Below are positions 11,588-33,026 of a stretch of DNA of 64,000 bases, piece after piece (within the stretch, counting starts at the first letter, position 1; each line of letters starts with the position of its first letter). The notes beneath the pieces are model-generated. The model was not told the DNA's origin. It worked only from the letters and a program-made list of their open reading frames with translations, and searched no databases. The stretch comes from Sphingomonas caseinilytica (GTDB lineage: Bacteria; Pseudomonadota; Alphaproteobacteria; Sphingomonadales; Sphingomonadaceae), in the NCBI RefSeq assembly GCF_023516455.1, contig NZ_JAMGBA010000003.1:1-64000 (forward strand), in the 5' to 3' direction. A program made the translations under genes and the position numbers.

Positions 11588-13621
11588 TTATCGCCTCGAA
11601 TCCAGTTTGAGAGATTTCGCGATTGTCGACCACGGAACGAATTTGAAGTTTTGATTCTCGACCGGAAGCATGTTGCGCCCGTCCTGTGCGATCATGGCGC
11701 CTTGCTCGAAGCCGGGGCCCAAGTTTGCACTCGACACATCGAGGCCGTCCGTTTCGGAAATGCCGTCGATGCCCTTTGCCGGGTCAGCGACGACAGAGAA
11801 TGAGCCGACATAAGCGTTATCTCCCTCGCGGCGATAAACCGCGTAGCTGTTGTTGCCTTGACTCGAGACGATCAGATAGCCACGCCCGCTGCCAAGATCG
11901 TAGAGGCCGACGCCTTCCATATCGTCCTTGAGCTTCGGATTGTCGGTGACCTTGTCGACGGAGACAGGGACGGCGGTCTTCACGGGATCGGCCGTCACTC
12001 GCCAAAGTCCGATGTCCTCTTCGGCAACATAGAGTGTGCTGTTTGCGTCATCGACGACGCACCCTTCGGTCTGGCTGCTGAACTTGATGTCGCGCACTTG
12101 CTTCGCTTGGACCTTTCCGGATCGCGTGGGAACCAGTTCCCATTGGCGGACCAGGCCGTCCGGATCGCTGATGAACACATAGGTCCGCCCACGCTTGCTG
12201 CGATACATGCACTGGCCGTAGGGATCTGACAGGCCGGTCGGTTGGATGCCGTCCGCGATGCTGGAAAGCGATCCGGTCGCAGTATCGAGCGAATAGATGG
12301 CGATTGCCTTGTTGGTTCGGTCGCTGGCCGTCACCAGGACGATATCGCGCCCGGCAAGCCGGTAGCCGGTTCTGAGATCGACATTGTTCATCTTGCCGTC
12401 GGCGGCGAAGAAGCGAGACTTGCCCTGCATGTCGTAAACATGAAGTCCACCCTGCTTGTCGGTGCCGATCACCCAGCTTGCGGCGGGATTCTCAGGATTG
12501 GCCCAGATCGCTGGATCGTCGGCCGCGTCGGCAGCGCTGGTTACTGGGTCGGACTCGATTGTGGGATGCACGATTGGAAATGTTGGTGCGACTGAAACGG
12601 TCAGCGGTTGCGGCGAACCGGCGCCGACGCCAATCGCTTGAGCGATCTTGGTGAACGGAATGACTTTGTAGTTCGACCCGTCTTCATCACCGACGACCAG
12701 AGCGCCCTGGCTGGATCCAACTGCCGAGCTTGTTGCGAACAGGCCGCCAGGTTCGCCGACCGCCTCTCCCGCCGACGAAATCGTCAATGCGCCGACATAG
12801 GCATCGTCCTTGGCATGATCGTAAACATAAAGCTGACCCGCCGATGCGTTGGAAGCGATCAGCCACCTGGCTCCTTCGCCGCCGTCGTAAAGTGCGAGTC
12901 CGCCGACTTCTTCGGTAATTTTGCCGAGCCGAACCGCGTCGACCAGTGTCGGTAGAATTTCGGTTTCAGGCTCCGCATTGAAGCGCCAGATCCCGACCGC
13001 TTGTTCCGCGACGTAAAGCTGGCCGGTCGTATCGTCGGCGACGCAATGCTCGACGGTGGAAGCCACATGGAGCCGCCGCATCAGCTTGGCATCCACGCGG
13101 CCGGCCGAGGGTTCGAACAGCAGATATTGGTCGATCTCACCCCCGTCGCCCAGCGCGAACGCGTAGAGGGAGCCGTCCTGGCTGCTAAGATAGAGGCATG
13201 CACCTTCAACTGCGATGCCAAGCGGAACCGGCCGCGCGCTAATTTCCGTGAGAGCGCCGCCCTGGGATCGATAAAAGCGAAGGCTGTTACTAGCGGCATC
13301 CGCGGCGAGCAGGACTGGAGAAGAACCAAGCCCCGGCAGCGCGCCATAACGCACATCGACACTAACCGCTTCGCCAGCGGGAGCAGAGCCAGTGCGCTTG
13401 CCCGAGCTGTCATAAATTTCGAGTCCAGCAAGCTCGGCCGTGCCGACAATCGATGCATTCTGGCCATCAGAAACGACCACCGCACGGTTCGAGCCGCCCT
13501 GCTGGGTCGCGACGGTGCTCGATGCGTCGACGGATGGAACGGCGGGTGCGTTTTGCGCCGCGACTCCAGTTCCCAAAAAGGCGATTCCGGCGATCCCGGC
13601 AAGTCCCACCCCAACCCGCAT
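11588..13621 (-). CDS. Secreted two-propeller beta-propeller phytase
   Basis: A 677-residue exported phytase (myo-inositol hexakisphosphate phosphohydrolase). It has a signal sequence (1 to about 25, ending GVAAQNAP). The C-terminal half (about 345-670) matches beta-propeller phytase: DDPAIWANPENPAASWVIGT, KQGGLHVYDMQGK, NNVDLRTGY, DGLVRQWELV, EGCVVDD, LYVAEEDIGLWR, DDMEGVGLYD and ISETDGLDVSS. These Asp/Glu/Lys/Arg-rich blocks supply the Ca2+ and phosphate sites in this family. The N-terminal half is a second, degenerate propeller with parallel blocks (EHCVADD, LYVAEQAVGIWR, EVGGLALYDGG), as in dual-domain phytases. It diverges from the TonB receptor at 13775. Ribosome site GGAGACGGCCAAA. Confidence 0.9.
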   Translation of the reverse strand: MRVGVGLAGIAGIAFLGTGVAAQNAPAVPSVDASSTVATQQGGSNRAVVVSDGQNASIVGTAELAGLEIYDSSGKRTGSAPAGEAVSVDVRYGALPGLGSSPVLLAADAASNSLRFYRSQGGALTEISARPVPLGIAVEGACLYLSSQDGSLYAFALGDGGEIDQYLLFEPSAGRVDAKLMRRLHVASTVEHCVADDTTGQLYVAEQAVGIWRFNAEPETEILPTLVDAVRLGKITEEVGGLALYDGGEGARWLIASNASAGQLYVYDHAKDDAYVGALTISSAGEAVGEPGGLFATSSAVGSSQGALVVGDEDGSNYKVIPFTKIAQAIGVGAGSPQPLTVSVAPTFPIVHPTIESDPVTSAADAADDPAIWANPENPAASWVIGTDKQGGLHVYDMQGKSRFFAADGKMNNVDLRTGYRLAGRDIVLVTASDRTNKAIAIYSLDTATGSLSSIADGIQPTGLSDPYGQCMYRSKRGRTYVFISDPDGLVRQWELVPTRSGKVQAKQVRDIKFSSQTEGCVVDDANSTLYVAEEDIGLWRVTADPVKTAVPVSVDKVTDNPKLKDDMEGVGLYDLGSGRGYLIVSSQGNNSYAVYRREGDNAYVGSFSVVADPAKGIDGISETDGLDVSSANLGPGFEQGAMIAQDGRNMLPVENQNFKFVPWSTIAKSLKLDSRR

Positions 13622-13774
13622 TTTGGCCGTCTCCGGTCTGTCACAGATGCCAGATAGCTAATCGCGACGACTTCGCCGTGCAAGGACAATTCCAAAATAG
13701 TTGCATTCTGGAATTTTCTGTTCAATCATGAATTTTGTCGTCACCAGAAGAAGTGAGGACAAGGGGGAGAGACT

Positions 13775-16279
13775 ATGATGCGCAAGCTGCAAACTCTGCA
13801 GGTGCTTCTCTTTTCGACTGCCTTTCTCGCTGCCCAAACAGCGATGGCTCAACAAGCGCCGGAGCAGTCGAGTACGCCCGATCAGGAACCCGCCGCCGAA
13901 ACGGCCGCGGAAGGCGATGCGAAGGTCGAAGGACAGCCAGCGGTTCCAACCAGCGAAGGCCTGGAGACAACCGATGACCGATCGCTGAGCGACATCGTCG
14001 TGGTAGGCTCGCGAATCTACCGCAATCGTACCGACACCATCGCTCCGGAGCTGACGTTCGGTCAGGAGTTCTTCCAGAAATTCGAGCCGACGTCGGTCGG
14101 CGACTCGCTGAAGCGCGTGCCCGGCGTCGCCTTCGGCAGCGACATTGGCGAATATGACGCGCCGGCTCTTCGCGGCCTCGGCGCCGGCTTCACCCAGATC
14201 CTGGTAAATGGCCGGCCGATCCCGGGCGGCGGTAACGACCGTTCGGTTTTCGTGGACCGCATTCCCGCTGAAATTATCGACCGCATTGAAATCATTCGAT
14301 CGCCAACCGCGGACCTCGACAGCCAGGGCATCGGCGGCACCATCAACATTATCCTGAAGGACGGCGCGAGCCTGCCGCCGGGTATCATTACCCGCGCGGC
14401 CCTTCTCTATTACCCTGACGACAATACCATCAAGGGATCTGGAGCGGTCTCGTGGTCGGGGCGGAATGCGGCCGAAACCGTGGCATGGTCGCTGACTGTC
14501 GATGCACAGCAGCGCTACAATCCGAAACTCACGCGCGAAGAGGTGTTCGACGACAACTCGCCAGGATTCGAAGACAGTGAGAATGGACTGGACCTATTCA
14601 AGCCATTCGATCGGGACGGCTCGGTCGCGGTTGAACGCACCGAAGAACTCGACACCCGCAGAAGCTTCGACCTTTCGCTGAATGGCGACATCACTTTCGT
14701 GCTCGGCGAGCAAAGCAAGCTGCGCTTCGATGGCTTCCTGATCCGAACGCGTCGTACCGATACCGAACAGACGCTGGGACTGGAGCGCCCGGAGAATGAT
14801 GATGAGGATCCGGTCTTCGATGAGGGCTGGGAAATCGATGCGACCGAGGTTGCGAAGGAGCCGTGGCGGCAGCTGAACTTCGGGCTTTCGGGACTGTATG
14901 AAACCAAGTGGGGCAACGGCATGAGCGCCGAAGCCCAGCTTCGCTACTCGCAGTTCGACGAGGAAAGCTCCAATAATACATATGAGATCGATGACGACCC
15001 GTTCGACCTGGACACGTTGGACGCTGAAGACCTTGAATTGACGGATGACGCCGAACTCTTCGAGATCGATGCGCTTGACGTGAACGACAAGGAATTCTCG
15101 GGTGACGCCGCGATCAAGAAGGATTGGGGCAATTGGAGCCTGAAGGGCGGCATCGCCGGCAAGATCAAGCGGCGCACATTCGGCCAAACGATCGGCGAGG
15201 ACCTCAACGACGACGAAGACGCGTCGATCGTCGAGAGCCGGTTCAAATATAACGAAAGCCGACTCGATGGCTTCGCGCTGGCGGAATTCAAGTTCGGCGG
15301 CGGAGCAAAGCTTCAGACGGGTGTTCGCGCCGAATATACCAAATCAAAACAGAAGATCCGGCAGGATCTGACGGAAGCCGACGAGGAAAAGGCTTCGGCG
15401 AACGAGTTCCACCTCAATCCGTCGATCCACTTCCAGATTCCGTTCGGTAACGGGCCGCAGTTCAGGGCCAGCCTGGCCAAGACTGTCCGCCGGCCGAATG
15501 TGGATCAGGTGGTCCCGTTCCGCCTGACTGATGATCCCGAGGACAATGACGTTACGATCGGCAACCCGGACCTGAAATTCGAAACCTCCTGGGGCGTCGA
15601 CATCGGGCTTGAACAGCGACTGCCGCGAGGCGTCGTCGGCCTGAACTTCTTCTACCGTAAGGTTCGCGACCTGATCTCGTTGGTGAATACGGGCGTACCT
15701 GTCTTCCCAGACGAAGATCCTGACAGCGACGAAGGCCGCGCCCGCATCTACAGCTTCGACAATGTCGGCAATGGCAAAGTCTATGGCCTTGAATTCGACT
15801 TGTCGGCACCGCTTGATTTTATCGGGATGCCTAACACGGGCCTGTTCGCCAACTACACCCGGATCTGGTCCGAGCGAACCGAACCCAACACCGGACAGGA
15901 AGTGCGGTTCGATGGGCAGCCCAAATATGTCTATAACTTCGGCCTGACCCAGGAAATTCCGAGCTGGGGGATGTCCGCAGGATTCAGTTTCCGCAAGCAG
16001 GGGCAGGCGACCAGCACCTTCTTCGGCGAAGAGGAATTCCAGAAGTATGAGGGTAACCTCGAAGCCTATGTCGAGAAGCGCTTTGGCAGCAATTTCGTGA
16101 TGCGCCTCAGCGCCAACAACCTGCTCGATGCGCGAAGCCTGCAGTGGGAGAAGAACTACGACGGCGATACGGGCCTCGAGATCATCGAGAACCAGCAGAA
16201 CGGCGACGTCGACAATTTCGAGGTCGAGCATGAGGAGACTTCGCCTCAGGTCATGCTGACCGCTCGACTAGTCTTCTGA
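13775..16279 (+). CDS. TonB-dependent receptor, probably for phytate breakdown products
   Basis: An 834-residue outer-membrane receptor. Signal peptide (1 to about 26, ending AMAQQAP), an acidic spacer, a TonB-box-like DIVVVGSRI (about 73-81), a plug domain with DSLKRVPGV, ALRGLG and GGTINIILKDGAS, and a long barrel ending in MLTARLVF. Between about residues 404 and 440 a predicted loop is extremely rich in Asp/Glu, which could bind Ca2+ or Ca-phytate; this is inference. It is divergent from the phytase and followed by an MFS carrier and a phosphatase on the same strand. The ATGATG start at 13775 follows AAGGGGGAGA. Confidence 0.88.
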   Translation: MMRKLQTLQVLLFSTAFLAAQTAMAQQAPEQSSTPDQEPAAETAAEGDAKVEGQPAVPTSEGLETTDDRSLSDIVVVGSRIYRNRTDTIAPELTFGQEFFQKFEPTSVGDSLKRVPGVAFGSDIGEYDAPALRGLGAGFTQILVNGRPIPGGGNDRSVFVDRIPAEIIDRIEIIRSPTADLDSQGIGGTINIILKDGASLPPGIITRAALLYYPDDNTIKGSGAVSWSGRNAAETVAWSLTVDAQQRYNPKLTREEVFDDNSPGFEDSENGLDLFKPFDRDGSVAVERTEELDTRRSFDLSLNGDITFVLGEQSKLRFDGFLIRTRRTDTEQTLGLERPENDDEDPVFDEGWEIDATEVAKEPWRQLNFGLSGLYETKWGNGMSAEAQLRYSQFDEESSNNTYEIDDDPFDLDTLDAEDLELTDDAELFEIDALDVNDKEFSGDAAIKKDWGNWSLKGGIAGKIKRRTFGQTIGEDLNDDEDASIVESRFKYNESRLDGFALAEFKFGGGAKLQTGVRAEYTKSKQKIRQDLTEADEEKASANEFHLNPSIHFQIPFGNGPQFRASLAKTVRRPNVDQVVPFRLTDDPEDNDVTIGNPDLKFETSWGVDIGLEQRLPRGVVGLNFFYRKVRDLISLVNTGVPVFPDEDPDSDEGRARIYSFDNVGNGKVYGLEFDLSAPLDFIGMPNTGLFANYTRIWSERTEPNTGQEVRFDGQPKYVYNFGLTQEIPSWGMSAGFSFRKQGQATSTFFGEEEFQKYEGNLEAYVEKRFGSNFVMRLSANNLLDARSLQWEKNYDGDTGLEIIENQQNGDVDNFEVEHEETSPQVMLTARLVF

Positions 16280-16318
16280 TCGGGTAAGCAGGCCAACATC
16301 ATGCGAAGTAGCGTTATG

Positions 16319-16351
16319 AGCGGAGAAGTGAAATGAACGTACTTCTCCGCT
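16319..16351 (+). promoter_or_regulatory. Hairpin enclosing the start codon of the MFS carrier
   Basis: Perfect 11-base inverted repeat AGCGGAGAAGT (16319-16329) and ACTTCTCCGCT (16341-16351). The Shine-Dalgarno GGAG is in the left arm and the ATG (16333-16335) is in the 11-base loop. In the mRNA this would hide the ribosome site, so it is a candidate translational control element. Confidence 0.55.
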
Positions 16352-17676
16352 CGTTCGCGACTGGCGCCGAGGCTCCCCGTATCGAGCAGCAATCGGAAAT
16401 CGATCGACTTTTCCGGCGCAACCGGATCCGCGTGATGCTGGCTATCACGATCGGCTACGGTCTCATCTACATGTGCCGGCTTGCGATCGGCGTGGTGAAG
16501 AAGCCCTTGATCGATCAGGGCATCTTTACGCCGACCGAGCTTGGGACGATCGGCTCCGCGCTCTTCTACACATATGCGCTGGGGAAGCTCACCAACGGCT
16601 TCCTTGCCGATCACGCCAATGCGCGACGCTTCCTGACGGCAGCGTTTCTGCTCACTGCGATTTGCAATCTCTTCATGGGGTTCACGACTACGGTCCTGGC
16701 CGCGACAATCATTTGGGGGCTTAACGGCTGGTTCCAAAGCTTCGGCGCTCCTGGAGGTGTCGTGGCGATGACCGCCTGGTTTTCGAACAAGGAGCGGGGC
16801 CGGGCCTATGGCGTTTGGAGCACGGCGCATTCCATCGGCGAAGGCCTCACCTTCCTGGTGGTTGGCGGACTGGTTTCTTATCTCGGCTGGCAATGGGGCT
16901 ATTGGGGCCCGGGCCTGATCGGCATCGTCACGGCCATTGGCGTGTTTGCGTTGATGCAGGACCGTCCGCAAACGCTTGGCCTTCCATCGGTCAACGAATG
17001 GAAGAAGGACCAGTATACGGAAACGAGCGAAAGCAGCGCCAGGAGCACGCTCGCTCTCCAATTCTCGATCCTGAAGATACCGGCGATCTGGGTGCTCGCC
17101 CTCGCCAGCGCCACAACCTACATCACCCGCTACGGCATCAACAGCTGGGGCATCCTCTATCTGCAGGAGGCCCGCGGCTATTCGCTTCCCATGGCCGGAA
17201 CGCTTCTGATGATCAGCACCCTGGCGGGCATTGCCGGCGCGGTGGCGTTCGGTTTCACATCCGACAAACTGTTCAACGCGCGGCGTCCACCCGCCAACCT
17301 GCTGTTCGCAATCCTTGAGCTGCTAGGGCTTGCGATCATCTTCTTCGGCCCGACGAATACGCCGATGCTGATTGTCGGCATGCTGCTGTTTGGCATGGGC
17401 CTCACCGGTCTGGTAACCTCGCTCGGCGGGCTCTTCGGCGTCGATATCGCTCCCAAACGCGCGGCGGGCGCGGCGATGGGGGTAGTCGGCATCTTCAGCT
17501 ACATCGGGGCTGCGATACAGGAGCAAGTTTCCGGCATCCTGATCGACCAGAATATGGCGATCGCAGGCGACGATCGCATCTATGACTTCGGGCCGGTCAT
17601 CTGGTTCTGGATCGGCTCATCCGTCGTCTCGATGCTGCTTGCAGCAAGCCTCTGGCGGACCCGGCTCCGCGACTAA
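16333..17676 (+). CDS. MFS organophosphate-type antiporter (GlpT/UhpT-like)
   Basis: A 447-residue inner-membrane carrier with 12 predicted helices. YMCRLAIGVVKKPLIDQG and LGTIGSALFYTYALGKLTNGFLADHANARRF follow the pattern of the organophosphate:Pi antiporter family (GlpT, UhpT, PgtP), and WFSNKERGRAYGVWSTAHSIGEG is the matching middle signature. In this context the likely cargo is an inositol phosphate or another product of phytate hydrolysis exchanged for phosphate; this is inference. It lies 53 bases after the TonB receptor and 24 bases before the phosphatase, so the three are probably one operon. Its start codon lies within an 11-bp perfect hairpin. Confidence 0.85.
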   Translation: MNVLLRSFATGAEAPRIEQQSEIDRLFRRNRIRVMLAITIGYGLIYMCRLAIGVVKKPLIDQGIFTPTELGTIGSALFYTYALGKLTNGFLADHANARRFLTAAFLLTAICNLFMGFTTTVLAATIIWGLNGWFQSFGAPGGVVAMTAWFSNKERGRAYGVWSTAHSIGEGLTFLVVGGLVSYLGWQWGYWGPGLIGIVTAIGVFALMQDRPQTLGLPSVNEWKKDQYTETSESSARSTLALQFSILKIPAIWVLALASATTYITRYGINSWGILYLQEARGYSLPMAGTLLMISTLAGIAGAVAFGFTSDKLFNARRPPANLLFAILELLGLAIIFFGPTNTPMLIVGMLLFGMGLTGLVTSLGGLFGVDIAPKRAAGAAMGVVGIFSYIGAAIQEQVSGILIDQNMAIAGDDRIYDFGPVIWFWIGSSVVSMLLAASLWRTRLRD

Positions 17677-17700
17677 AACATGATTGGAAGGGCTAATCTG

Positions 17701-18966
17701 ATGCGCGGCTATCTGTTGGGCGCGACCCTGTTCCTGGCCGGTTGCGCAAGCACGCCACCTGGCGCGGTTTCGCCACAAGGATCGCGGCCCTACGCGATGC
17801 TGCTGTTCGGAGATCACGGCTACGATCTAGATTACCTCGAAGCGGACGAGCGCAAGCCGCCCCTAACGCTTGAACAGGCGATCGCCGTCGAGCGCGAAGA
17901 ATGGGCCGAGGACAAGCGGCCGCCCGCCGAATTCGCGCCATCTGCGATGATCCAGCTGCCCGATACCGGGGGTTATGTCGCCGCGAGTGGAATGATGCCG
18001 GTCGCAAAGGCGATGCGCAGCTACTGCCAGACTGCGCAATGCGATTCCGCCGTCATGCTCGGCGACAATATCTATCCCAATGGCCCGACGAGCGGCGCGG
18101 ACGGCATCAGCGATGCCAAGCGCTTCAACGAGATCCTGCTAGAACCTTATAAAGATTTCGGGAGCATCGCACCCGACTTCCGGATCTACGCAACGCTCGG
18201 AAATCATGATTGGCGGACCTCGCGGGAGGCTGCGCTATCCGAAGTCCGCTATCTCGAAACGACCAAGCCCTTTTACATGGACGGGATCTTCTATCGGGTC
18301 AGTCCTCCGGGCCGACCCGACGTCGAGATCTTCGTGCTGGACACCGAAGTGCTGCTGGCCAACGAAAAGGTTTACGAAGCCGAGCTGGCGGATGACGGAA
18401 GCGAACTTCCGGGCACCACGCTCGAAGAGCCCGAGCCGTGGACAAAGCCGCAAAATGAGGGCGAGCGGAACATGGTCGCCTGGCTGGAACAGTCGCTTCG
18501 GCAATCGACCGCTCGGTGGAAAATCGTGATGGCACATCACCCCATCTGGTCCTCGGCAGGAAGCAAGTTCCAGCAGGCCCGTGTCCTTCGGCGCCTGATC
18601 CTGCCGACGATGTGCAAATATGCCGACATGTTTTTGGCGGGCCACGAACATACGCTTGAGCTTCATACCGACAGCTGCGCGGCCGCTGTGCCCGGCAGCA
18701 ACCTTCCGCCACTGCCGCAGATAGTGTCAGGCGCGGCGGCGAAGCAGCGGCCGGTCAACAGCGCATTCATGGCTCACCAGGCCCGCAACAATCCGGAGTT
18801 GAAGACCAGCTACGCCAAGGGCCTGATCTGGGGATATGTCCACCTGACGATGGACGGCGACCAGGCAACCGCGCGCGTCTTCACCACGCCGAACGATGGC
18901 AGCGGCGCCAACGTGCTAGAAGCCACCGAACATTACGCGCGCCGGACAGGTATCCTGCCTCACTAG
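17701..18966 (+). CDS. Lipoprotein metallophosphatase (calcineurin-like / purple acid phosphatase-like)
   Basis: A 421-residue predicted lipoprotein. The ATG at 17701 gives a short signal with lipobox LAGC (Cys about 15) and has GGAAGG eight bases upstream; an ATG at 17680 would add seven residues. Metallophosphoesterase motifs occur in order: LLFGDHG, VMLGDNIYP, TLGNHDWR, AHHPIWS and GHEHTLELH, covering the two-metal site. The distance between motifs is longer than in simple phosphodiesterases and fits the acid-phosphatase-like branch. Next to a phytase, it probably removes further phosphates from inositol phosphates in the periplasm. Its stop codon overlaps that of the convergent TonB receptor (CTAG at 18963-18966). 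Confidence 0.85.
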   Translation: MRGYLLGATLFLAGCASTPPGAVSPQGSRPYAMLLFGDHGYDLDYLEADERKPPLTLEQAIAVEREEWAEDKRPPAEFAPSAMIQLPDTGGYVAASGMMPVAKAMRSYCQTAQCDSAVMLGDNIYPNGPTSGADGISDAKRFNEILLEPYKDFGSIAPDFRIYATLGNHDWRTSREAALSEVRYLETTKPFYMDGIFYRVSPPGRPDVEIFVLDTEVLLANEKVYEAELADDGSELPGTTLEEPEPWTKPQNEGERNMVAWLEQSLRQSTARWKIVMAHHPIWSSAGSKFQQARVLRRLILPTMCKYADMFLAGHEHTLELHTDSCAAAVPGSNLPPLPQIVSGAAAKQRPVNSAFMAHQARNNPELKTSYAKGLIWGYVHLTMDGDQATARVFTTPNDGSGANVLEATEHYARRTGILPH

Positions 18967-20981: not shown

Positions 20982-21774
20982 CTACCGGAGCGATCGCGTC
21001 GACCAACTCGGAATGAAGCTGCGGGACCGAAGCAAGTACGGTCCCATTGTCGAGAACCAGGGGTTGTCCGAGCGTATCAGTTACGATGCCGCCTGCCTCT
21101 TCGACGATGACTACGCCGGCTGCGATATCCCACGCGTTTATGCTTTGCTCCCAATAAGCATCGAACCGACCGCAGGCGACGTACGCCATATCGACCGCTG
21201 CCGCCCCAAGCCTGCGAATGCCGGAAACGATCGGCGTCAATCGCGCCATTTCTGCGGCAAATTGTTCGTGTCGCGGTTTACTCGCGAAGGGAATTCCGAC
21301 GCCCAGGACCGCTTCGATCATTTGCTGTCGAGAGGAAATGTGGATTGGCTGGTCGTTGAGATAGGCTCCTTGGCCCCGCTCGGCCCAGAAGGTCTCATCC
21401 AGAAGCGGGATATGGGTCACCCCGGCGACTGCCCGGCCATTGGTGGCGAGTGCGATGTTCACCGCGAACAATGGCAGGCCGATGAGAAAATTCGTCGTGC
21501 CGTCGAGAGGATCGACAATCCAGACATTGTCGGGATCGTCACCCGCAACCAGCCCACCCTCTTCGCCGAGGAAACCGTATTCCGGACGGAATGAAGACAA
21601 CCTTTCGCGAACGGTTTGCTCGGCGCGCAAATCCGCCTCGCTGAACATGTCGTCCAGGCCTTGCTTATGCTGAACCTGCAGCTGGGCAATGTTGGCGAAG
21701 TCGCGCTTCAGCCCTTCGCCGGCTGCGAAGGCCGCATCCAGCATCGCTGCAATGAGGGGTGAACGGTCAGCCAT
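20974..21774 (-). CDS. Inositol monophosphatase family protein
   Basis: A 266-residue soluble enzyme that would hydrolyse inositol monophosphate to inositol and phosphate. The metal-site motifs are all present: GEEGG (about 71-75), IVDPLDGTTNFLIGLPLF (about 92-109) and AWDIAAGVVIVEEAGG (about 210-225). The true start is ATG 21774, one base after the iolB stop; a longer opening to 21867 overlaps iolB. The position inside an iol operon favours a real role in clearing the last phosphate of phytate breakdown products over the housekeeping SuhB role, though related enzymes also act on other sugar phosphates. The stop overlaps the start of the TonB receptor. Confidence 0.9.
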   Translation of the reverse strand: MADRSPLIAAMLDAAFAAGEGLKRDFANIAQLQVQHKQGLDDMFSEADLRAEQTVRERLSSFRPEYGFLGEEGGLVAGDDPDNVWIVDPLDGTTNFLIGLPLFAVNIALATNGRAVAGVTHIPLLDETFWAERGQGAYLNDQPIHISSRQQMIEAVLGVGIPFASKPRHEQFAAEMARLTPIVSGIRRLGAAAVDMAYVACGRFDAYWEQSINAWDIAAGVVIVEEAGGIVTDTLGQPLVLDNGTVLASVPQLHSELVDAIAPVDG

Positions 21775-21775
21775 G

Positions 21776-25289: not shown

Positions 25290-27202
25290 TGCCCAGCCCC
25301 GCTTTCGGCCCGCGCCGAACGCCACCCCTCTACAAGTGCCGAAAGCCTCGATGCCATCGTGCTTATCGCTTCTTCGTCGTCGATCCGGTCGGATAGCCAG
25401 TCCGTCGCGACGTCGTGGAATATGGAGCGTCCGACTGCAAACCCTTTGATCAACGGAAACCGGGCGGCAGCATTGAACGATGCAATGAGATCCGGGATCG
25501 GTGCCGAGAGCCCGAGCATCAAAATTCCTCGGCACAGAGGATCTCGATCCTCAATTACGCGAACAATATTGGCCCATGCCGACTGATCGCTGGACGGTTC
25601 CAGCTTCCACCAGTCCGGGCGAATGCCGATGTCGTAAAGCCGGTCGAGTGCGCGCGCGGTTGTCTCTTCATCTACCGTCAGATGCGATGGCGGGATGATT
25701 TCCAGCAGCAGTTCGTGCCCGGTTCGCCGGCAGGCGGAATAGAGGCGGAGCAACTGTCGTTCCTGTCGTTCCTTCAGTTCCGGCGGATCGTCCGGATGAT
25801 AGCTCGCCAGGCATTTGACGACATGCGTCAGCGGCCAGCTATTGAGCTCCATGCCTACGTCGTCATCGCCTTCAAATTCCAACGGGCGCGACCGTGGCGT
25901 TTCGATTGGCCGTCCGATCCAATAATTACGATCGGCCAACTCCGCTAGGACGCTAAATCCGAACCGATCGTCGATCAGCATTCCGAACCTCGGGTCCCCC
26001 CCGGCGACACGGTCCAATGCACTCAGCGCCAGCTGCTTGAACTGGCTGACGCGCTCGTCCGAGCAGCCCAAGTCGCGGATCAGCTCTTCGAACTGGCTGC
26101 GATGGTCGATCGCCAGCACTGACAATTCGCCATAATGATTCAGCCGCGTCGTTGCCCAATGCAGGTGCTCCAGGTCGCGATCTTCACGAACCCGGAATGG
26201 AATGTCGGTCCGGCCAAGAAAGCTGTCGAGCTCCGCTTTCGTCGGCATTGCCGGAGCGCAGCCGTGGCGGGAAACGACGATCGCGCCGCAGGCATTGGCG
26301 AGCCGGCAGCATTCCTCGACGGGTGCGTTGCGAAGCCACCCGGACAGGAAGCCCGCCATGAACGCGTCGCCGGCGCCGAGTACATTGAATACCTCGACGG
26401 GGAGGCCCTGGACCAACAATCCATCTTCGACTTCCGACGGAATTTCTCCCAGGAAGGCGACGCAGCCTTCGGCCCCCAGCTTGCAAACCAGTAGCGCATC
26501 CGTAGTGCGCCTAACGGCCCGAATTGCACTGATCGTATCGTCGTTCCCGCCAAGGATGCGCATTTCCTCTTCGGTGCCGACGACAAGATCGCAATAGGGC
26601 AGGATAGACTGCAGCCGCTCCGAAACCGCGTTCGAAGCGACATAGCGGTTCTCACCAAGGTCTTTCCCGGTGAGCCCCCACAGTACGGGTCGATAGTCGA
26701 CGTCGAATACCACTTTCCCGCCGCTGCTCTTGGCGAATTCGATTGCTTTCAACGATGCTTCGAACACCGAAACGGTCGACAGGTGCGTCCCGTTGACGAG
26801 AACGGCTCCGGCGCACGTTACAAGCCGTTCGTCGATGTCACCGATATCGATCGCCATGTCCGCGCAGTTTTCCCGGTAGAAGATCAGCGGGAACTGCTCC
26901 CGGTCTCGAATGCCCAGGATGACGAGCGCGGTCAGCCTTTCGGGGTCAGCGCCAACGGCACTGACGTCGACGCCTTCGCGTACAAGCTGCTCGGTAATGA
27001 AGCGCCCCATGTGGTCGGCACCGACACGGGTGATGAGCGCGCTCTTCAGTCCAAGCCTGGCCACGCCGATTGCCGTGTTGGTCGGGCTTCCGCCAACATA
27101 TTTGGCGAACGAGCCCATGTCCTCAAGCCGTCCTCCGGCTTGCTGCCCGTAAAGGTCGACGCTCGATCGGCCAATGGCAACCAGGTCCAGCGATTTGGTC
27201 AA
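25286..27202 (-). CDS. iolC: Fused 5-dehydro-2-deoxygluconokinase and DUF2090 aldolase-like protein IolC
   Basis: A 638-residue two-domain protein. Residues 1 to about 325 are a PfkB sugar kinase (AIGRSSVDLYGQQ, FAKYVGGSPTNTAIGVARLG, and the catalytic VFNVLGAGDAFMAGFLSGWL) that phosphorylates 5-dehydro-2-deoxygluconate. Residues about 330-630 are the DUF2090 domain (LAIDHRSQFEELI, RFGMLIDDRFG, ELLLEIIPPSH, WWKLEP, GFAVGRSIFHDVATDW), thought to cleave the phosphorylated product to DHAP and malonate semialdehyde in place of a separate IolJ. It starts at TTG 27202. It is the first gene of the iolC-D-E-B operon, with a palindromic operator (27241-27256) 40 bases upstream. Confidence 0.93.
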   Translation of the reverse strand: MTKSLDLVAIGRSSVDLYGQQAGGRLEDMGSFAKYVGGSPTNTAIGVARLGLKSALITRVGADHMGRFITEQLVREGVDVSAVGADPERLTALVILGIRDREQFPLIFYRENCADMAIDIGDIDERLVTCAGAVLVNGTHLSTVSVFEASLKAIEFAKSSGGKVVFDVDYRPVLWGLTGKDLGENRYVASNAVSERLQSILPYCDLVVGTEEEMRILGGNDDTISAIRAVRRTTDALLVCKLGAEGCVAFLGEIPSEVEDGLLVQGLPVEVFNVLGAGDAFMAGFLSGWLRNAPVEECCRLANACGAIVVSRHGCAPAMPTKAELDSFLGRTDIPFRVREDRDLEHLHWATTRLNHYGELSVLAIDHRSQFEELIRDLGCSDERVSQFKQLALSALDRVAGGDPRFGMLIDDRFGFSVLAELADRNYWIGRPIETPRSRPLEFEGDDDVGMELNSWPLTHVVKCLASYHPDDPPELKERQERQLLRLYSACRRTGHELLLEIIPPSHLTVDEETTARALDRLYDIGIRPDWWKLEPSSDQSAWANIVRVIEDRDPLCRGILMLGLSAPIPDLIASFNAAARFPLIKGFAVGRSIFHDVATDWLSDRIDDEEAISTMASRLSALVEGWRSARAESGAGQ

Positions 27203-27240
27203 AGTCGTCAGACGCCCCTATCTGCTCCTTTGAAACAACT

Positions 27241-27256
27241 ATTCCAACATTGGAAT
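27241..27256. promoter_or_regulatory. Predicted iol regulator operator upstream of iolC
   Basis: Perfect inverted repeat ATTCCAA-CA-TTGGAAT in the 70-base gap between the regulator gene and iolC. A variant of the same pattern occurs upstream of iolG at 28200-28215. It is likely to be the binding site of the RpiR-type regulator. Confidence 0.6.
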
Positions 27257-27272
27257 TTCCGCAATGAGCATT

Positions 27273-28136
27273 TCACTTTTTGCGGGCAACCTTTCGGCTG
27301 CCCTCGGCTTCGAACGCAAATCCGATCACAACCGCCTGCGCCAGGCACATCGAGGCAGCAAGCGACCGAAAGCTGCGGACTTCTGAATCATGCACTTGGA
27401 GGGCGATGTCGGCCGCCTTGGCGATCGGGCTAACGCGGCTATCGCTAATCGAAAGGATCTTCGCGCCATTGCGCGTCGCAATCTCGGTCAGCTCGACCGT
27501 CTCCGGCGCATAAGGATGGAAGCTGACGGCGATTAGAAGGTCCCTGTCATCGATCGTGTTGGCCTGTGGCCGGGCTAGGCCTCCGACGCCGTCGATGAAT
27601 TGGACATGCTTGCCGAGCTGCTGAAGCGAGTAGGCCAGATAGGCGGAAATCGGAAAGGCGCGCCGGAACCCCGCGACATGGACCACGGCCGCGTTTGCGA
27701 TGAGGTCGACCGCACCGCGCATTTCCTTCTCGCTGACCGTCTCGCTGAGGTTCTGGAGTGCGAGAATATTTCCTTCGACGAATTCGGTCAGGAGGCCTTC
27801 GCCCGCCGCGGTCCGGCTGACCGACTCGCTGAAACGGCGGACGCGCTCCCCATAACCAATGGCGTTGTTGGCCGAGAGCAGGCCGTCGCGGAACAGCCGT
27901 TGCATCTGGCTGGCGCCGGAAAAACCGAACGCCTGGGCGAAACGGACGATTGCAGAAGGTTGCACGCCGCAGCGCTCCGCGATCACCGCAAGCGTTTCGA
28001 GCGCGAGCTCATTTGGCTCGTCCAGGACATAGCGCGCGACTTGCTTCAGGCGCTTGCTAAGCCCGTCATAGTCTTTCAGCAGCAGAGTTCGGAACTCTTC
28101 CGCGGTTGCAGGCGGCTTGCGGATCTTGTTTCCCAT
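27273..28136 (-). CDS. RpiR/MurR-family transcriptional regulator of the iol genes (IolR-like)
   Basis: A 287-residue regulator. The N-terminal helix-turn-helix of the RpiR family is at about 20-90 (LSKRLKQVARYVLDEPNELA, SAIVRFAQAFGFSG), and the SIS sugar-phosphate-binding domain at about 125-270 (VVHVAGFRRAFPISAYLAYSL, LLIAVSFHPYAPET, ILSISDSRVSPIAKAADIAL). In related alphaproteobacteria the iol genes are repressed by an RpiR-type IolR released by an inositol pathway intermediate. Its position between the iolC and iolG promoters, both of which carry similar palindromes, supports the same role here. Ribosome site GAGGGAAA precedes ATG 28136. Confidence 0.88.
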   Translation of the reverse strand: MGNKIRKPPATAEEFRTLLLKDYDGLSKRLKQVARYVLDEPNELALETLAVIAERCGVQPSAIVRFAQAFGFSGASQMQRLFRDGLLSANNAIGYGERVRRFSESVSRTAAGEGLLTEFVEGNILALQNLSETVSEKEMRGAVDLIANAAVVHVAGFRRAFPISAYLAYSLQQLGKHVQFIDGVGGLARPQANTIDDRDLLIAVSFHPYAPETVELTEIATRNGAKILSISDSRVSPIAKAADIALQVHDSEVRSFRSLAASMCLAQAVVIGFAFEAEGSRKVARKK

Positions 28137-28155
28137 TTTCCCTCGCTAGCGTTCT

Positions 28156-28169
28156 GGAATATTCATTCT
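28156..28169. promoter_or_regulatory. GGAA-N6-TTCT operator-like site
   Basis: GGAATATTCATTCT, one mismatch from a GGAA-N6-TTCC palindrome, 20 bases upstream of the rpiR start. It is placed for autoregulation. Confidence 0.45.
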
Positions 28170-28199
28170 CACCGTGGAAATCAAAAGCCATTTACGGCA

Positions 28200-28234
28200 A
28201 TTCCAAAATTGGTATTTGTGGGAACAATCATTCC
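28200..28234. promoter_or_regulatory. Pair of operator-like sites upstream of iolG
   Basis: ATTCCAA-AA-TTGGTAT (28200-28215) matches the iolC operator with one changed base, and GGAACAATCATTCC (28221-28234) is an exact GGAA-N6-TTCC site of the form reported for IolR in rhizobia. They lie just before iolG (start 28253). Confidence 0.55.
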
Positions 28235-28252
28235 AACTCAGGCGACGGGCTA

Positions 28253-29254
28253 ATGAAGGTACATAATGTGGCACTGGTCGGCGCCGGGCGCATGGGCGGA
28301 CTCCATGCGCGTAATCTCGCCGCCAGTCCGCGCTTTCGGTTAGCGGCGATTGCCGACCACAGCGGGGAATTGGCCGGCAGCCTCGCCGACGAGCTGGGTT
28401 CGACAGCCGCAACCTATGAAGAGATTCTCGGCGACGATAGCATTGTGGCAGTGGTGGTCGCGAGTTCGACCAGCTCGCACCTCGAAAATGTTCTTCTCGC
28501 TGTGGGCGCTGGGAAATCCGTATTCTGCGAGAAACCGCTTTCGCTTGACGCCGATGCGTTGGCTGAGGCGCTGCCCCAGATTGAGCAATCTTCGAGACCA
28601 GTCTTCATCGCTTTCAATCGCCGCTTCGATCCGCATCTCACGGCCCTGAAGGCGCAATTTTCGGCCGGCTCGATCGGAAATCTCGAGACGCTTCACATCA
28701 TCAACCACGACCCGGCGTCGCCACGGCTAGATTTCATTCCGCGAAGCGGTGGGTTGTTCAAGGATTTCACCATCCACGACTTCGACACGGCCCGGTGGCT
28801 CGTCGGGGAAGAATTCGTGGAACTCTACGCGGCGGGCGCCTGTCTAATCGATCCCAAGATCGGAGAGCTTGGCGACATCGATACCGCGAAGCTGATTCTA
28901 AGGAGCGCAAGCGGGGTGCTCTGCCTGATCAGCAACAGCCGGCGGACCGGCTATGGCTACGACCAGAGAGTCGAGCTGTTCGGGTCGAAAGGCGCCCTGC
29001 GCGTCGGCAATGTCGCCGGTTCCACGGTTTCGACATTTGATGAAGGCGGGGGGCATGGAGCGGCGTTCCCCTATTCCTTCGCCGAACGCTACGCCGAGGC
29101 GTATCGCGCCGAGCTCGATCATTTCGCTGATGTCCTGGACGGTGGCGCCGCGCCGTCGACAGGGCCGCGCGACACGCTTCGCGCACTGCACCTTGCGGAC
29201 GCCGCGGAACGATCGTTCAGGGCCGGGGCTCCTGTCATGCTCCAGGGGGATTGA
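28253..29254 (+). CDS. iolG: Inositol 2-dehydrogenase IolG (Gfo/Idh/MocA family)
   Basis: A 333-residue NAD-dependent dehydrogenase for the first step, myo-inositol to 2-keto-myo-inositol. The Rossmann motif VALVGAGRMGGLHARN opens the protein; FCEKPLSLD carries the catalytic Lys, FIAFNRRFDP follows, and GGLFKDFTIHDFDTARWLVG carries the Asp/His pair used by IolG enzymes. ATG 28253 is used; the frame opens further upstream but runs through the operator region. It is followed after three bases by a paralogue, so the pair is an operon. Confidence 0.9.
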   Translation: MKVHNVALVGAGRMGGLHARNLAASPRFRLAAIADHSGELAGSLADELGSTAATYEEILGDDSIVAVVVASSTSSHLENVLLAVGAGKSVFCEKPLSLDADALAEALPQIEQSSRPVFIAFNRRFDPHLTALKAQFSAGSIGNLETLHIINHDPASPRLDFIPRSGGLFKDFTIHDFDTARWLVGEEFVELYAAGACLIDPKIGELGDIDTAKLILRSASGVLCLISNSRRTGYGYDQRVELFGSKGALRVGNVAGSTVSTFDEGGGHGAAFPYSFAERYAEAYRAELDHFADVLDGGAAPSTGPRDTLRALHLADAAERSFRAGAPVMLQGD

Positions 29255-29257
29255 GCA

Positions 29258-30247
29258 GTGCATAATATCGCCGTCATCGGTGCCGGCCGCATCGGACGCA
29301 TCCATGCTTCCAACGCCAAGACCGATCCGCGGATCGATCTCAAATATGTCGTGGATCCGATCGCCAGCTCGGCCGACGATCTGGCATCTTCGACGGGCGC
29401 TAAGGTTGCAGGCCTCGGAGAGGTGCTCGCAGACCCGGATGTGAGCGGCGTGGTCGTCGCCAGTTCGACGGACACCCACCTCGAATTCAGCGTGGCCGCC
29501 ACAGCCGCGGGCAAGGCGGTATTTTGCGAAAAGCCGATCGATCTCGACCTGTCCAAGGCACGCGCCGCTGCCACCGCACTCGGCAGCGACGACGCCAGGC
29601 TGTTCCTGGGCTTCAATCGCCGCTTCGATCATAATTTCCGGCAGCTGCGCGATCGCATCCACTCCGGCGAAATGGGCGCATTGGAAACGTTGCACATCAT
29701 CAGTCACGACCCGTCGCCGCCACCGATCGACTACGTCCGCGTGTCGGGAGGGATGTTCAAGGACATGACCATCCATGACTTCGACATGGCCAGATGGCTG
29801 CTGGGCGAAGATCCCGTAGAGGTCTATGCGGCAGCGACATCCGTCGTGGACCCGGCGATCGGCGAGGCCGGCGATGTGGATACGGCGAAAATTCTGCTTC
29901 GAACGCAAAGCGGCAAGATCTGCGTCATCAGCAACAGTCGCAGAAGCGGTTATGGCTATGATCAACGGATCGAGGCTTTCTGCGCCAAGGGGCTGCTGCG
30001 CGCCGGCAATGTGCTGTCTTCCACCGTCGAGGTCTGGGGCGAGTTCGGCTCGCAGACCGACGCGCTGCAGAACTTCTTCCTCGACCGGTATGCCGGCGCC
30101 TACCGGTCGGAGATGTCCCATTTCGCGGACATATTGGACGGCGCGACACCGGCGGTCGGATACCAGGACGGCATTTCCGCCCTCGCTATCGCCGAAGCGG
30201 CCATGGAAAGCCATTTGGGATCGAAGGCCGTCGCCATCCGCTATTAA
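29258..30247 (+). CDS. Second inositol dehydrogenase-like protein (Gfo/Idh/MocA)
   Basis: A 329-residue paralogue of the preceding iolG: IAVIGAGRIGRIHASN, FCEKPIDLD, LFLGFNRRFDHNF and GGMFKDMTIHDFDMARWLLG match the same blocks in the same order. It starts with GTG three bases after the iolG stop. Two tandem enzymes suggest different inositol isomers (for example myo- and scyllo- or D-chiro-inositol), which matters because some soil phytate is of the scyllo form; the assignment of isomers is inference. It ends 21 bases from the convergent ABC transporter gene. Confidence 0.88.
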   Translation: MHNIAVIGAGRIGRIHASNAKTDPRIDLKYVVDPIASSADDLASSTGAKVAGLGEVLADPDVSGVVVASSTDTHLEFSVAATAAGKAVFCEKPIDLDLSKARAAATALGSDDARLFLGFNRRFDHNFRQLRDRIHSGEMGALETLHIISHDPSPPPIDYVRVSGGMFKDMTIHDFDMARWLLGEDPVEVYAAATSVVDPAIGEAGDVDTAKILLRTQSGKICVISNSRRSGYGYDQRIEAFCAKGLLRAGNVLSSTVEVWGEFGSQTDALQNFFLDRYAGAYRSEMSHFADILDGATPAVGYQDGISALAIAEAAMESHLGSKAVAIRY

Positions 30248-30268
30248 TCGGCGAGCCGTGCGGGCGAG

Positions 30269-31018
30269 CTAGGCCGAAACCGATCCGCTCATCAGCGCCT
30301 GCAATTCATCGGCCGTCACTTCACTCTTCGCCCGGCTGTCCAATGTTCGCCCCCGGTTGAGGACCGTGAATCGGTCTCCGACCTGAAGCGCGTGGCGTAC
30401 ATTGTGAGTGATGAAGACGACGCCCAGCCCCCGCGATCGAACCTCGTCTATGCATTTGAGGACCATCGCGGTCTGGGTGACACCTAGAGCTGACGTGGGC
30501 TCGTCGAGTATTAGGACCCGGGCGCCGAAATAGACCGCCCTGGCGATCGCAACGCATTGCCGTTCCCCGCCTGAAAGCGTGCCCACGGGCCGGCCGGGAT
30601 CCCGAAGCGTGATCCCCATCCGTTTCATTTCATCGCGCGTGACATCCGCCGCCCGGTCGCCATCGAGCATTCGTATTGGGCCAAGGCGTTTGATCGGTTC
30701 ACGACCGAGGAAGAAATTGCGGGCGACCGACATCAGCGGAATCATCGCGAGGTCCTGGAACACGGTAGCAATACCGCGGTCGAGCGCGTCACGGGGATCC
30801 CGGAATAAGGCTGGCTCGCCGTCGACAAACAGCCCGCCTTCGGACGGCTGGTGCACCCCGGACAATATCTTGATCAAGGTTGACTTGCCGGCGCCATTGT
30901 CGCCGAGCAGGCAGTGAACCTCGCCCGGTCCGACATCGAACGACACCCCGGAAAGCGCAATGACGGAGCCAAAGCGCTTGGCGACGTCGCGGGCGGAAAT
31001 AAGCGGCCCGGAGCTCAC
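30269..31018 (-). CDS. Sugar ABC transporter ATPase (CUT2, single-domain type)
   Basis: A 249-residue ATPase with one nucleotide-binding domain: Walker [10 protein letters not shown], signature LSGGERQ, Walker [13 protein letters not shown], and switch His in FITHN. Most CUT2 systems (RbsA, IatA) have two fused domains; a single-domain form occurs in FrcA-like systems. The start is GTG 31018, overlapping the permease stop (GTGA). It belongs to a three-gene importer whose neighbours point to inositol as the substrate. Confidence 0.9.
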
Positions 31019-32046
31019 GATCTTTCTCCGGCCACGCGCTTGCGGACGTAATTGTTGAACAGCACCGCCATCAGCAGCATCGCACCGAGGAAGACCTGGT
31101 ACCAATCCTGGTCGATGCGGGTGTAGGTGAGGCCGATTACGACCATTCCGAATATGATCGCGCCAAAGAAAGCGCCCACGACCGATCCGAATCCCCCGGT
31201 AAGCAGGCAGCCGCCGATCACTGCGGCGATGATCGCTTCAAACTCCTTCTGAAAGCCGCGCCGCGCATCCGTCGAGCCGGAATCCAATACCGTAAGTATG
31301 GCTACAAGCGCCGCGCAGCAGGCCGTGACGATGAACAAAATGGCCTTGACGTCTGCAACCGGCACACCGGAGTTGCGCGCGGCTTCAGCGTCGCCGCCCG
31401 ATGCCAATATCCAGTTCCCAAACCGAGTTCGGGCAAGGACGAAGGCGCCGATCGCCGCCACCGCCGCGAACCACAATAGCTCGATGGGAATTCCGGATAC
31501 GTCGCCCGTAAACAGCGGAAGAAGCGAGCTGCCGGTCACGGACTCGCGAATGCCCCGCAACTGGGTCGAACCGCCGGTTGCCCATTTGAGGCCGACCAAA
31601 CTTAAGCCCCGCAACATGAACAGCAGCGCGAGCGTGACGATGAAGGACGGCAGGCCCGTCTTCAACACGATCTGGGCATTGAGGGCACCGATGGAGATGG
31701 CGAAGGCAAAGGTGAGCAGGATGGCGACTGCAAGTGGCGCCTGCCATACGACCAGGATGGCTCCGAAGACGAAGCCGGCGAATGCCACCATCGACCCGAT
31801 CGAAAGATCGAACTCACCGGAGATCATCAGAAGTGCGGCGCCAACCGCAAGGATGCCCAGCTGAGCGGCCGGGCTCATCACGTTCATCAGGCCCGCCGCC
31901 GTGAACATCGCTGGATCGGCGGTGAAAAGGAAGAAGAGGGTGACGACGAGAAGTCCGCCGACTGCTCCCAGCTCTGGTCGTTTGACCAGCTCAAGAAAGC
32001 GTTGTGCTGGCGGTGGCTGAGCCTCGGGCTCTTCTGCGCCGCCCAT
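31015..32046 (-). CDS. Sugar ABC transporter permease (CUT2)
   Basis: A 343-residue inner-membrane permease with eight to ten helices. [22 protein letters not shown] is the typical block of ribose/inositol-type permeases, and [28 protein letters not shown] is the cytoplasmic-loop signature that contacts the ATPase. ATG 32046 overlaps the stop of the binding-protein gene (TGATG). It is translationally coupled on both sides. Confidence 0.92.
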
Positions 32047-33026
32047 CAACGGATCGCCTGCTTGGAAAGCTCCAGCACCTTGGGTGCATCCGCGCGAGTG
32101 ACGAAGCGCGGGCCGCTTTCGATCAGCCGGTTGGCCGGCATCAGGCCGTAGCGGACGTTGTTGGTAAGCAGCACGGTGCTCAGATAGCCCTGGAGAAAGG
32201 CTTGCGGGTCAACTGCGAACGTGGCCTCTCCGCGACCGAGCGCTTCAAGAAAGCCGGGCGAAAGGTCGAACGACGCGATCTTGACGGGTCGTTGCGCCTC
32301 CCGCACCGCCTCGACTGCAGGATCCCCGGCCAGCGGAGCGCTAAGCGTGACAAGCGCATCGATCGCTCGATCCCCTGCCAGTACCGCAGCGATTTTCGAT
32401 CTGATTTCCTGATACTCGTTGGATGTCGGGAGGACAGAGACAGGGCCGGCAAAACCGTCCTTCACTCCCCTGCAGCGAGCATCAAGAGCAGTGTTGCCGA
32501 CTTCATGATTGACGCAGGCGACTTTCCTGGCCCCCACCTGCTTCAACCGCTCGCCAACGCGCTTCCCGGTCTCATATTCGTCCTGGCCGATATGGATCAA
32601 GGACCCAAGTCCAGCTGCTACGTCGGATCCGGAATTGATCGATACGACTGGAATCCCTGATTGCACTGCCGCACGGATGGAAGGTCCAAGCGCCTCGGCG
32701 TCCGGGATGGTGACAATAATACCCGCCGGATGCTGATTTGTGGCCGACTGGATGAGTTCGGCCATGCGAATCATGTCGAATGTCTCCGGAGCCCGATATT
32801 CGAGCCCGACCCCCATTTGCCGGGCCGCTTCTTCGGCTCCGTTCCGGACGATATTCCAATAGGGATCCGCAGCTTGCCCATGAGAGATCATCACGATCCG
32901 TTCGTTACCCGAACCGTCGTCATGACTTGCCGTCGGCGACGCACTTTTGAATGCAGTAATGCCGAGCATCACGCCAAGTATTAATGCGACGCACGCTGCC
33001 CAGAGGAGTTTGAGCTCTGGTGACAT
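32046..33026 (-). CDS. Sugar/inositol-binding protein of the ABC importer
   Basis: A 326-residue periplasmic-binding-protein-like (Peripla_BP_4) protein: MISHGQAADPYWNIVRNGAE, GIIVTIPDAEALGPSIRAAV, GIPVVSINSGSD, SFDLSPGFLEAL and AVDPQAFLQGYLS. The N-terminal hydrophobic segment (about 7-27) looks more like an uncleaved anchor than a normal signal peptide. ATG 33026 has an AGGAGGACGAGA ribosome site; an in-frame opening to 33161 extends into repeat DNA. It is the first gene of the importer operon. Inositol as ligand is inferred from the iol genes around it. Confidence 0.88.
   Translation of the reverse strand: MSPELKLLWAACVALILGVMLGITAFKSASPTASHDDGSGNERIVMISHGQAADPYWNIVRNGAEEAARQMGVGLEYRAPETFDMIRMAELIQSATNQHPAGIIVTIPDAEALGPSIRAAVQSGIPVVSINSGSDVAAGLGSLIHIGQDEYETGKRVGERLKQVGARKVACVNHEVGNTALDARCRGVKDGFAGPVSVLPTSNEYQEIRSKIAAVLAGDRAIDALVTLSAPLAGDPAVEAVREAQRPVKIASFDLSPGFLEALGRGEATFAVDPQAFLQGYLSTVLLTNNVRYGLMPANRLIESGPRFVTRADAPKVLELSKQAIR

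Follow-up and report, generated by a model that had tools for sequence, protein, structure and literature searches.

Phytate is a major organic phosphorus store in plants and soil, and the phytases of bacteria are generally treated as enzymes of phosphorus supply. Described here is a locus of Sphingomonas caseinilytica (Alphaproteobacteria, Sphingomonadaceae) in which a phytase, TonB-dependent receptors, a carrier, and phosphatases adjoin the genes of inositol catabolism (iol). It lies at positions 11588-33026 of a 64,000-nucleotide stretch, hereafter the window (contig NZ_JAMGBA010000003.1, positions 1-64,000, assembly GCF_023516455.1). The inositol module of Caulobacter crescentus (iolR, iolC, iolD, idhA, and ibpA-iatA-iatP; Boutte et al. 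2008, PMC2597717) is similar in its RpiR-type regulator IolR, iol genes, ABC inositol importer, and operator, but the accessible part of that paper describes no phytase, TonB receptor, organophosphate antiporter, or phosphatase there; phytase is named a single time, in the title of a cited reference, and TonB nowhere. A phytase adjoining a TonB receptor, as found here, is reported from Citromicrobium (PMC3400609) and Flavobacterium (Fjoh_1367-1368, PMC8115612), but the available excerpts mention no inositol catabolism; the Flavobacterium pair belongs to the low-phosphate response. In the gut, the excerpted text of one study describes phytate dephosphorylation and the use of inositol as distinct traits that cross-feeding connects, with some isolates having both, namely phytase activity plus iol genes (PMC12838507). 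The coupling is not mentioned in the available parts of this study, of an iol-cluster survey (PMC9430895), or of a review (PMC12482443), and no phytase joined to inositol catabolic genes appeared in the titles and abstract openings of open-access papers among the matches listed (subscription papers lay outside the scope).

The locus is probably a phytate/inositol-phosphate carbon-utilization module under the RpiR-type repressor IolR, as judged from its gene content, its recurrence, and its promoters. In such a module, the exported two-domain phytase, at the surface or in the periplasm, would convert phytate to lower inositol phosphates, two TonB receptors would carry phytate or its products across the outer membrane, and a lipoprotein metallophosphatase would remove further phosphates. 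A GlpT-like antiporter would then exchange phosphate for a low inositol phosphate, likely the monophosphate, and so deliver it to the cytoplasm, where inositol monophosphatase would release myo-inositol for degradation by IolG, E, D, B, and the C-aldolase fusion. Free inositol would be taken up in parallel by a CUT2 importer, and malonate semialdehyde would be finished by an iolA/mmsA homolog elsewhere in the genome. In this scheme, the phytase would share its control with inositol catabolism and would not answer to phosphate starvation. We infer the substrates of receptors and carrier, the binding of IolR, induction by inositol, and growth on phytate. The features are as follows.

11588..13621, minus strand: two-domain beta-propeller phytase, 677 amino acids; PF02333 in two stretches, total 431.7 bits; Sec-type signal peptide.
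13679..13694, minus strand: proposed IolR-type operator, first site of the phytase/receptor 1 pair; score 8.0.
13709..13724, plus strand: proposed operator, second site of the same pair; score 6.1, weak singly.
13775..16279, plus strand: TonB-dependent receptor 1 (TBDR1), plug and barrel (PF07715, PF00593), signal peptide.
16333..17676, plus strand: MFS protein of the organophosphate:phosphate antiporter (OPA) type; model matches under cut-off; nearest solved relative GlpT 1pw4, E 7.5e-59.
17701..18966, plus strand: calcineurin-type metallophosphatase lipoprotein, lipobox LAGC; PF00149, with a weak match to purple acid phosphatases.
18963..20981, minus strand: TonB-type outer-membrane receptor 2; PF00593 barrel, E 1.4e-07.
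20974..21774, minus strand: inositol monophosphatase, 266 amino acids; PF00459, 222.5 bits; solved relatives SuhB/IMPase.
21776..22576, minus strand: iolB, 5-deoxy-glucuronate isomerase; TIGR04378, 342 bits (cut-off 205).
22573..23472, minus strand: iolE, inosose dehydratase; TIGR04379, 386 bits (cut-off 290).
23469..25289, minus strand: iolD, trihydroxycyclohexanedione hydrolase; TIGR04377, 921 bits (cut-off 715).
25286..27202, minus strand: iolC kinase fused to a DUF2090/aldolase domain; NF047869, 780 bits (cut-off 600); TIGR04382, 400 bits (cut-off 300); PF09863.
27231..27246, minus strand: proposed IolR-type operator ahead of iolC; score 17.5; with a weaker site 29 bp off, pair score 24.0.
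27273..28136, minus strand: RpiR-family regulator, IolR-like; PF01418, PF01380; relatives in other clusters.
28155..28235, no strand assigned: proposed operators between iolG1 and rpiR at 28155, 28190, and 28220; single scores 12.3 (28155) and 12.2 (28220).
28253..29254, plus strand: iolG-type dehydrogenase 1; TIGR04380, 365 bits (cut-off 355).
29258..30247, plus strand: iolG-type dehydrogenase 2; TIGR04380, 410 bits (cut-off 355).
30269..31018, minus strand: ATPase of the CUT2 ABC importer, single ATP-binding domain; PF00005.
31015..32049, minus strand: permease of the CUT2 importer; PF02653.
32046..33026, minus strand: substrate-binding protein of the CUT2 importer; PF13407; rhizopine-type binding protein model NF052284, 287 bits, under the cut-off of 420.

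Gene identities were assigned by profile searches, which recovered every gene named in the first-pass annotation of this DNA; starts were reset for inositol monophosphatase, iolD, iolG1, and the CUT2 ATPase and binding protein. Membership in an iol cluster is clear, with iolB, iolC, iolD, iolE, and both iolG genes over curated cut-offs in one cluster. The tightly coupled run proposed earlier, iolC-D-E-B-phosphatase-receptor, was recovered with 4-bp overlaps at C/D, D/E, and E/B, a 1-bp gap between iolB and the phosphatase, and an 8-bp overlap between phosphatase and receptor, distances that hold with the reset starts of iolD and inositol monophosphatase. To call the locus complete, as the same annotation did, is too strong: iolA (malonate-semialdehyde dehydrogenase) was not found within the window locus, and one homolog over cut-off (TIGR01722, 661 bits) lies on another contig (G000:C1:1035091-1036521), so that the locus by itself does not encode the whole pathway. 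In several relatives, iolA belongs to the cluster.

The linkage of the phytase and MFS genes with iol genes is conserved across several lineages. Among 298 genomes of the family, iolB is over cut-off in 10 and PF02333 in 137. Two-domain phytases occur in seven (the window's included), all of them among the 10 iolB genomes, and 130 genomes have single-domain phytases only, none of these with iolB over cut-off. The phytase lies about 7-16 kb from iolB on one contig in six of the seven; in the seventh, G067, they are split between contigs, and iolB and the inositol monophosphatase gene both sit at the end of a contig. The overlap between iolB and two-domain phytase in the 298 genomes has a hypergeometric P of 3.1e-12, relatedness ignored. 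An MFS protein over 600 bits is present in eight of the 298, seven of which are the cluster genomes and the eighth of which is G204 (at most five candidates per genome were scored). Conserved linkage in relatives, on which the earlier interpretation depended, is thus borne out: it is kept in seven of the 10 iolB-bearing family genomes, the window's counted. A further genome, G276, was considered as an eighth carrier of a two-domain phytase and rejected, since its two stretches come from a single, broken domain; it is counted as single-domain, and its gene (L051, 14256-15196) is split into two reading frames.

Outside the family, a scan of named genomes with the window phytase gave 15 two-domain loci, nine from Brevundimonas and six from metagenome-assembled genomes (MAGs) labeled Woeseiaceae, Gammaproteobacteria, or only Proteobacteria. 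Genes of the iol set stand beside the phytase in four Brevundimonas loci (L054, L058, L061, and L062) and in five MAGs (L063, L064, L065, L066, and L068); none was found beside it within the available DNA of L055, L056, L057, L059, L060, and L067, the first three of which are short contigs. In the 14 genomes behind these loci, iolD and the MFS are both present in 10 and both absent in four, counting G680, whose iolD is partial and under cut-off. The regulator was sought in nine of the 14 and found in six, at 48-64% identity; the three without it are also without iolD. The four Brevundimonas clusters share one order, beginning with kinase, response regulator, PepSY protein, receptor 2, PhoD phosphatase, inositol monophosphatase, and MFS, and continuing with iolA, iolB, E, D, C, rpiR, two iolG, receptor 1, and phytase. 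At L041-L042 and L094-L097, a histidine kinase, a response regulator, and a PepSY protein stand beside receptor 2; the window cluster is without them. In one Woeseiaceae MAG (L092:8064-12140), a second organophosphate-type MFS and TRAP transporter genes (DctM, DctP) adjoin the cluster receptor. A closely similar pair of phytases comes from Brevundimonas bullata: L054 (strain S00223) is a linked cluster with operators, and L060 (strain HAMBI_262) is without operators in a genome without iolD.

In the Alphaproteobacteria at large, the class of the window, iolD is present in 56 of 385 genomes. Only one of the 55 other than the window's, G470, has PF02333, 3.4 kb from iolD; together with the recurring clusters, this makes the coupling rare but recurrent. 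In G470 (L089), which belongs to another family of the class, this phytase is of a different kind, and a receptor and a histidine phosphatase lie on the far side of the iol genes; the same principle may have been assembled there independently. Recurrence in the family, in Brevundimonas, and in gammaproteobacterial MAGs means that the assembly is not unique to the window genome. Trees of the phytase (22 rows) and of IolD (20 rows) both recover a gammaproteobacterial and a Brevundimonas group; their deeper alphaproteobacterial order is mostly open, and hence neither joint descent nor a direction of transfer is claimed.

If a phytase/receptor island had come to lie next to an independent iol island by chance, this would agree with the three family genomes that have iolB without a PF02333 match (G075, G141, and G182) and with the four genomes that have a two-domain phytase without iolD. 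Such an accident is hardly credible, however, for a linkage kept in several genera of the family and, beyond it, in Brevundimonas and gammaproteobacterial MAGs, with the overlap within the family given above, shared operators, and one aligned block with sharp edges. This phytate/inositol block measures about 21.6 kb, and 11582-33152 aligns in one piece with the congener G274 at 79% nucleotide identity. In the 40 kb compared, the left side aligns outside the block in just one gene, a DUF418 gene (10075-11364 here, 4052-5341 in the G274 region L047) that stands in opposite orientation in the two congeners, and the right side does not align at all. A short tyrosine recombinase (237 amino acids, PF00589 at 61-222) is encoded at 33297-34010, directly past the right cluster edge; with the sharp alignment edges, it hints at mobility of the block. 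The G+C content is 0.606 in the cluster and 0.582 and 0.588 in the two flanks.

The promoters suggest a tie between the phytase and the iol genes. The Caulobacter IolR operator has the consensus GGAANATNCGTTCCA, and mutation of one copy raises iolC expression, according to the accessible part of the report (PMC2597717). Allowing mismatches, this consensus gave 26 sites in the window against 16.8 expected, and its core 40 against 28.8, a small contrast that made a trained matrix and the spacing of sites necessary. A palindrome read by eye in the iol intergenic regions, ATTCCAANATTGGAAT, occurs at two places in the window and was dropped because its core is near-exact elsewhere only in the congener. 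The matrix used instead was seeded from the Caulobacter consensus; its training set comprised 18 promoters, of iolC and iolG, from nine loci other than the window, with no MAGs. The window genome thus lies outside the training set, and its iolC promoter holds the best single site of the window (17.5). With RpiR regulator domains and a palindromic operator in the iol promoters, the locus has the makeup of a Caulobacter-type IolR regulon.

Strong sites are also found in phytase and receptor promoters of other clusters, many of them paired at 30 bp. Among spacings of 16 to 60, that of 30 scores highest in 14 of 16 phytase or receptor promoters and ranks second in the other two, a preference that was noticed on the same promoters before it was counted and that comes from related sequences that are not independent; iolC promoters favor a spacing of 29 (9 of 11). 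Within a uniform 500 bp, a 30-bp pair scoring at least 14 is present in 15 of 16 promoters of iol-linked two-domain phytases, in none of five unlinked two-domain phytases (best 12.6), and in none of 20 upstream regions of single-domain phytases (best 11.7). These controls are 20 of the 130, taken from the top of the score list with G056, G156, and G139 skipped. L065 was left out because its contig begins inside the gene, and L057 was placed among the linked loci, since iolD (partial) and the MFS are present in its genome, though on other contigs; only a TBDR1 relative adjoins its phytase. Only G245 departs from this. One pair (31.3) sits there at 14665, ahead of the probable start of the histidine phosphatase gene that comes before the phytase, and another (26.8) lies immediately ahead of the inositol monophosphatase gene. 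In the background, five of 455,728 positions reach a pair score of 14, by position three upstream of cluster genes and two inside genes. The 64-kb window has only two 30-bp pairs of at least 14: 28190/28220 between iolG and rpiR is best (19.0), and 13679/13709 between phytase and receptor is second (14.1). The shared operators would be a regulatory link that goes beyond what the first-pass annotation had predicted.

A Pho-type phosphate-scavenging locus, in which phytase and receptors supply phosphorus and the iol genes merely dispose of the ring, is a rival reading for which the family offers some grounds. Single-domain phytases without iolB are common there (130 of 298 genomes), and one adjoins a TonB receptor in the genome of the window itself (C2:230944), in G269, and in G276. 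The phytase-linked receptor of Flavobacterium is induced by phosphate depletion, as the available text states (PMC8115612). Two of the 20 single-domain control promoters match the PhoB box, as we assume it to be, at 13/14 or 14/14. Near the window phytase, by contrast, no match exceeds 10 of 14. This is no more than null sequence gives (of 200 null stretches, 33 have a score of 10 and three a higher one) and does not place the phytase in a Pho regulon; with the box at chance level and IolR-type pairs present, we regard a phosphate-scavenging locus as improbable. In G067 and G083, the boxes reach 12 and 11 of 14, and dual control by IolR and PhoB is conceivable in these two.

The phytase itself is a beta-propeller enzyme by its PF02333 matches over cut-off and by catalytic residues, whose roles we take as given, in one propeller. 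Its C-terminal domain (351-670) aligns over about 320 residues with Bacillus phytase 1poo, and what we take to be the metal- and phosphate-binding residues of that enzyme are matched in the alignment. Signal peptides of phytase and both receptors, as well as the metallophosphatase lipobox, were read by eye. TBDR1 is divergent from the phytase in the window, in G274, and in four Brevundimonas loci, and the other family clusters have a receptor of a different subfamily (about 25% over parts). Relatives of receptor 2 are found at 36-53% in G186, G083, G245, and G081 and at 38-40% in the four Brevundimonas clusters. The phosphatase slot beside the MFS varies. A metallophosphatase occupies it in the window and G274, and a PhoD-type phosphatase lies in or near it in G081, G245, G186, and the four Brevundimonas clusters; metallophosphatase relatives (45-47%) stand beside the phytase in MAG clusters L063, L064, L066, and L068. 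A histidine-acid-type phosphatase (Pfam check for G083 and G245) adjoins the phytase in G083, G067, and G245 and lies elsewhere in the cluster in G081 and G186. The constant parts across clusters are the MFS and inositol monophosphatase. No leader was seen by eye in the latter; its relatives in G274, G081, and G245 also begin at the domain itself, and the starts in G186, G083, and G067 are unsure.

It is doubtful, though less improbable than phosphate scavenging, that the MFS imports some other organophosphate, glycerol phosphate or sugar phosphate, with its placing incidental, and that phytate is fully dephosphorylated outside so that only free inositol enters through CUT2. The models that the MFS matches (UhpC, PgtP, and GlpT types, 245-264 bits, all under cut-off) are for other organophosphates. 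The window does have a CUT2 importer: binding protein, permease, and ATPase adjoin the iol genes, with inositol as predicted substrate. In Caulobacter, the ibpA-iatA-iatP operon is essential for growth on inositol, according to the part of the paper available (PMC2597717). However, the window binding protein (ibpA) and permease (iatP) have no match at 1e-6 in the stretches fetched from G186, G083, G245, and G081, whereas MFS and inositol monophosphatase are present in all four, a pattern that points to inositol phosphate, not only free inositol, crossing the inner membrane. The joint presence or absence of MFS and iolD in 14 of 14 genomes argues in the same direction.

Several observations weigh against an IolR-controlled phytate module, besides the way in which the 30-bp spacing was noticed. 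The window phytase pair (14.1; sites 8.0 and 6.1) is, jointly with that of G274, the weakest of the fifteen. Single sites are not specific: one of 16.4 lies inside the phytase gene at 12953 and one of 16.0 at 44584. No good site precedes ibpA in the window and G274 or the MFS in the window, G274, and G245; the MFS of G081 does have one (14.9). The operator pair is missing ahead of five two-domain phytases, and iolD from four of the genomes that encode them, which indicates that the enzyme also works outside the cluster setting. Just past the phytase, three Brevundimonas clusters have weak matches (28-40%) to the CUT2 ATPase and permease, which would suit entry as free inositol; a free-inositol importer is conceivable there from these matches. 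G204 has an MFS relative (61%), no PF02333, no iolB over cut-off, and an unrelated neighborhood, a placing that would suit a carrier of some other organophosphate. The G204 gene (L102-L104) gave no further lead: it lies beside a lipoxygenase gene and near genes for CHAP-domain proteins, and its other neighbors encode a second MFS and a GGDEF protein.

On balance, the interpretation of the first-pass annotation is supported, with two corrections: the joining is not confined to the window genome, and the pathway is not complete in the locus. The parts belong to known families; new are their assembly, its spread, and the operator link. A wider proposal is that a class of phytate carbon loci extends over Alpha- and Gammaproteobacteria, in which the phytase would be IolR-controlled and catabolic and the GlpT-like carrier would be the first dedicated bacterial inositol-phosphate importer; judged from sequence, it seems to us evenly poised between right and wrong. 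If true, some bacteria would use phytate mainly as a carbon source, releasing phosphate as a by-product, and the times and places at which such bacteria mineralize phytate would change. The locus gives concrete candidates for an inositol-phosphate carrier and for phytate receptors.

Compared with known systems, the phytase resembles the Bacillus beta-propeller phytases (1poo, 1cvm, and 3amr) in its C-terminal domain and differs from them by an extra, partial N-terminal propeller domain. The MFS shares the sequence family of GlpT, UhpT, UhpC, PgtP, and human SLC37A4. It belongs to the OPA family by its similarity to GlpT, including two phosphate-binding arginines; these, a lysine, and a histidine, four residues that we take to form the GlpT phosphate site, are identical in the alignment with 1pw4. 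It is unlike the bacterial antiporters in falling far below their curated equivalog cut-offs (GlpT 245 of 632.55 bits, PgtP 162 of 750, and UhpT 157 of 497) and in its proposed substrate, inositol phosphate. Polysaccharide utilization loci combine an exported hydrolase, TonB uptake, periplasmic trimming, an inner-membrane permease, catabolic enzymes, and a regulator in one unit. The same division of labor appears to apply here, with the differences that the substrate would be a sugar-alcohol phosphate, that no SusD is among the cluster genes, and that the permease is of the organophosphate type. By this analogy, we regard it as an iol catabolic cluster in variant form, one that would handle phytate in the manner of a polysaccharide utilization locus.

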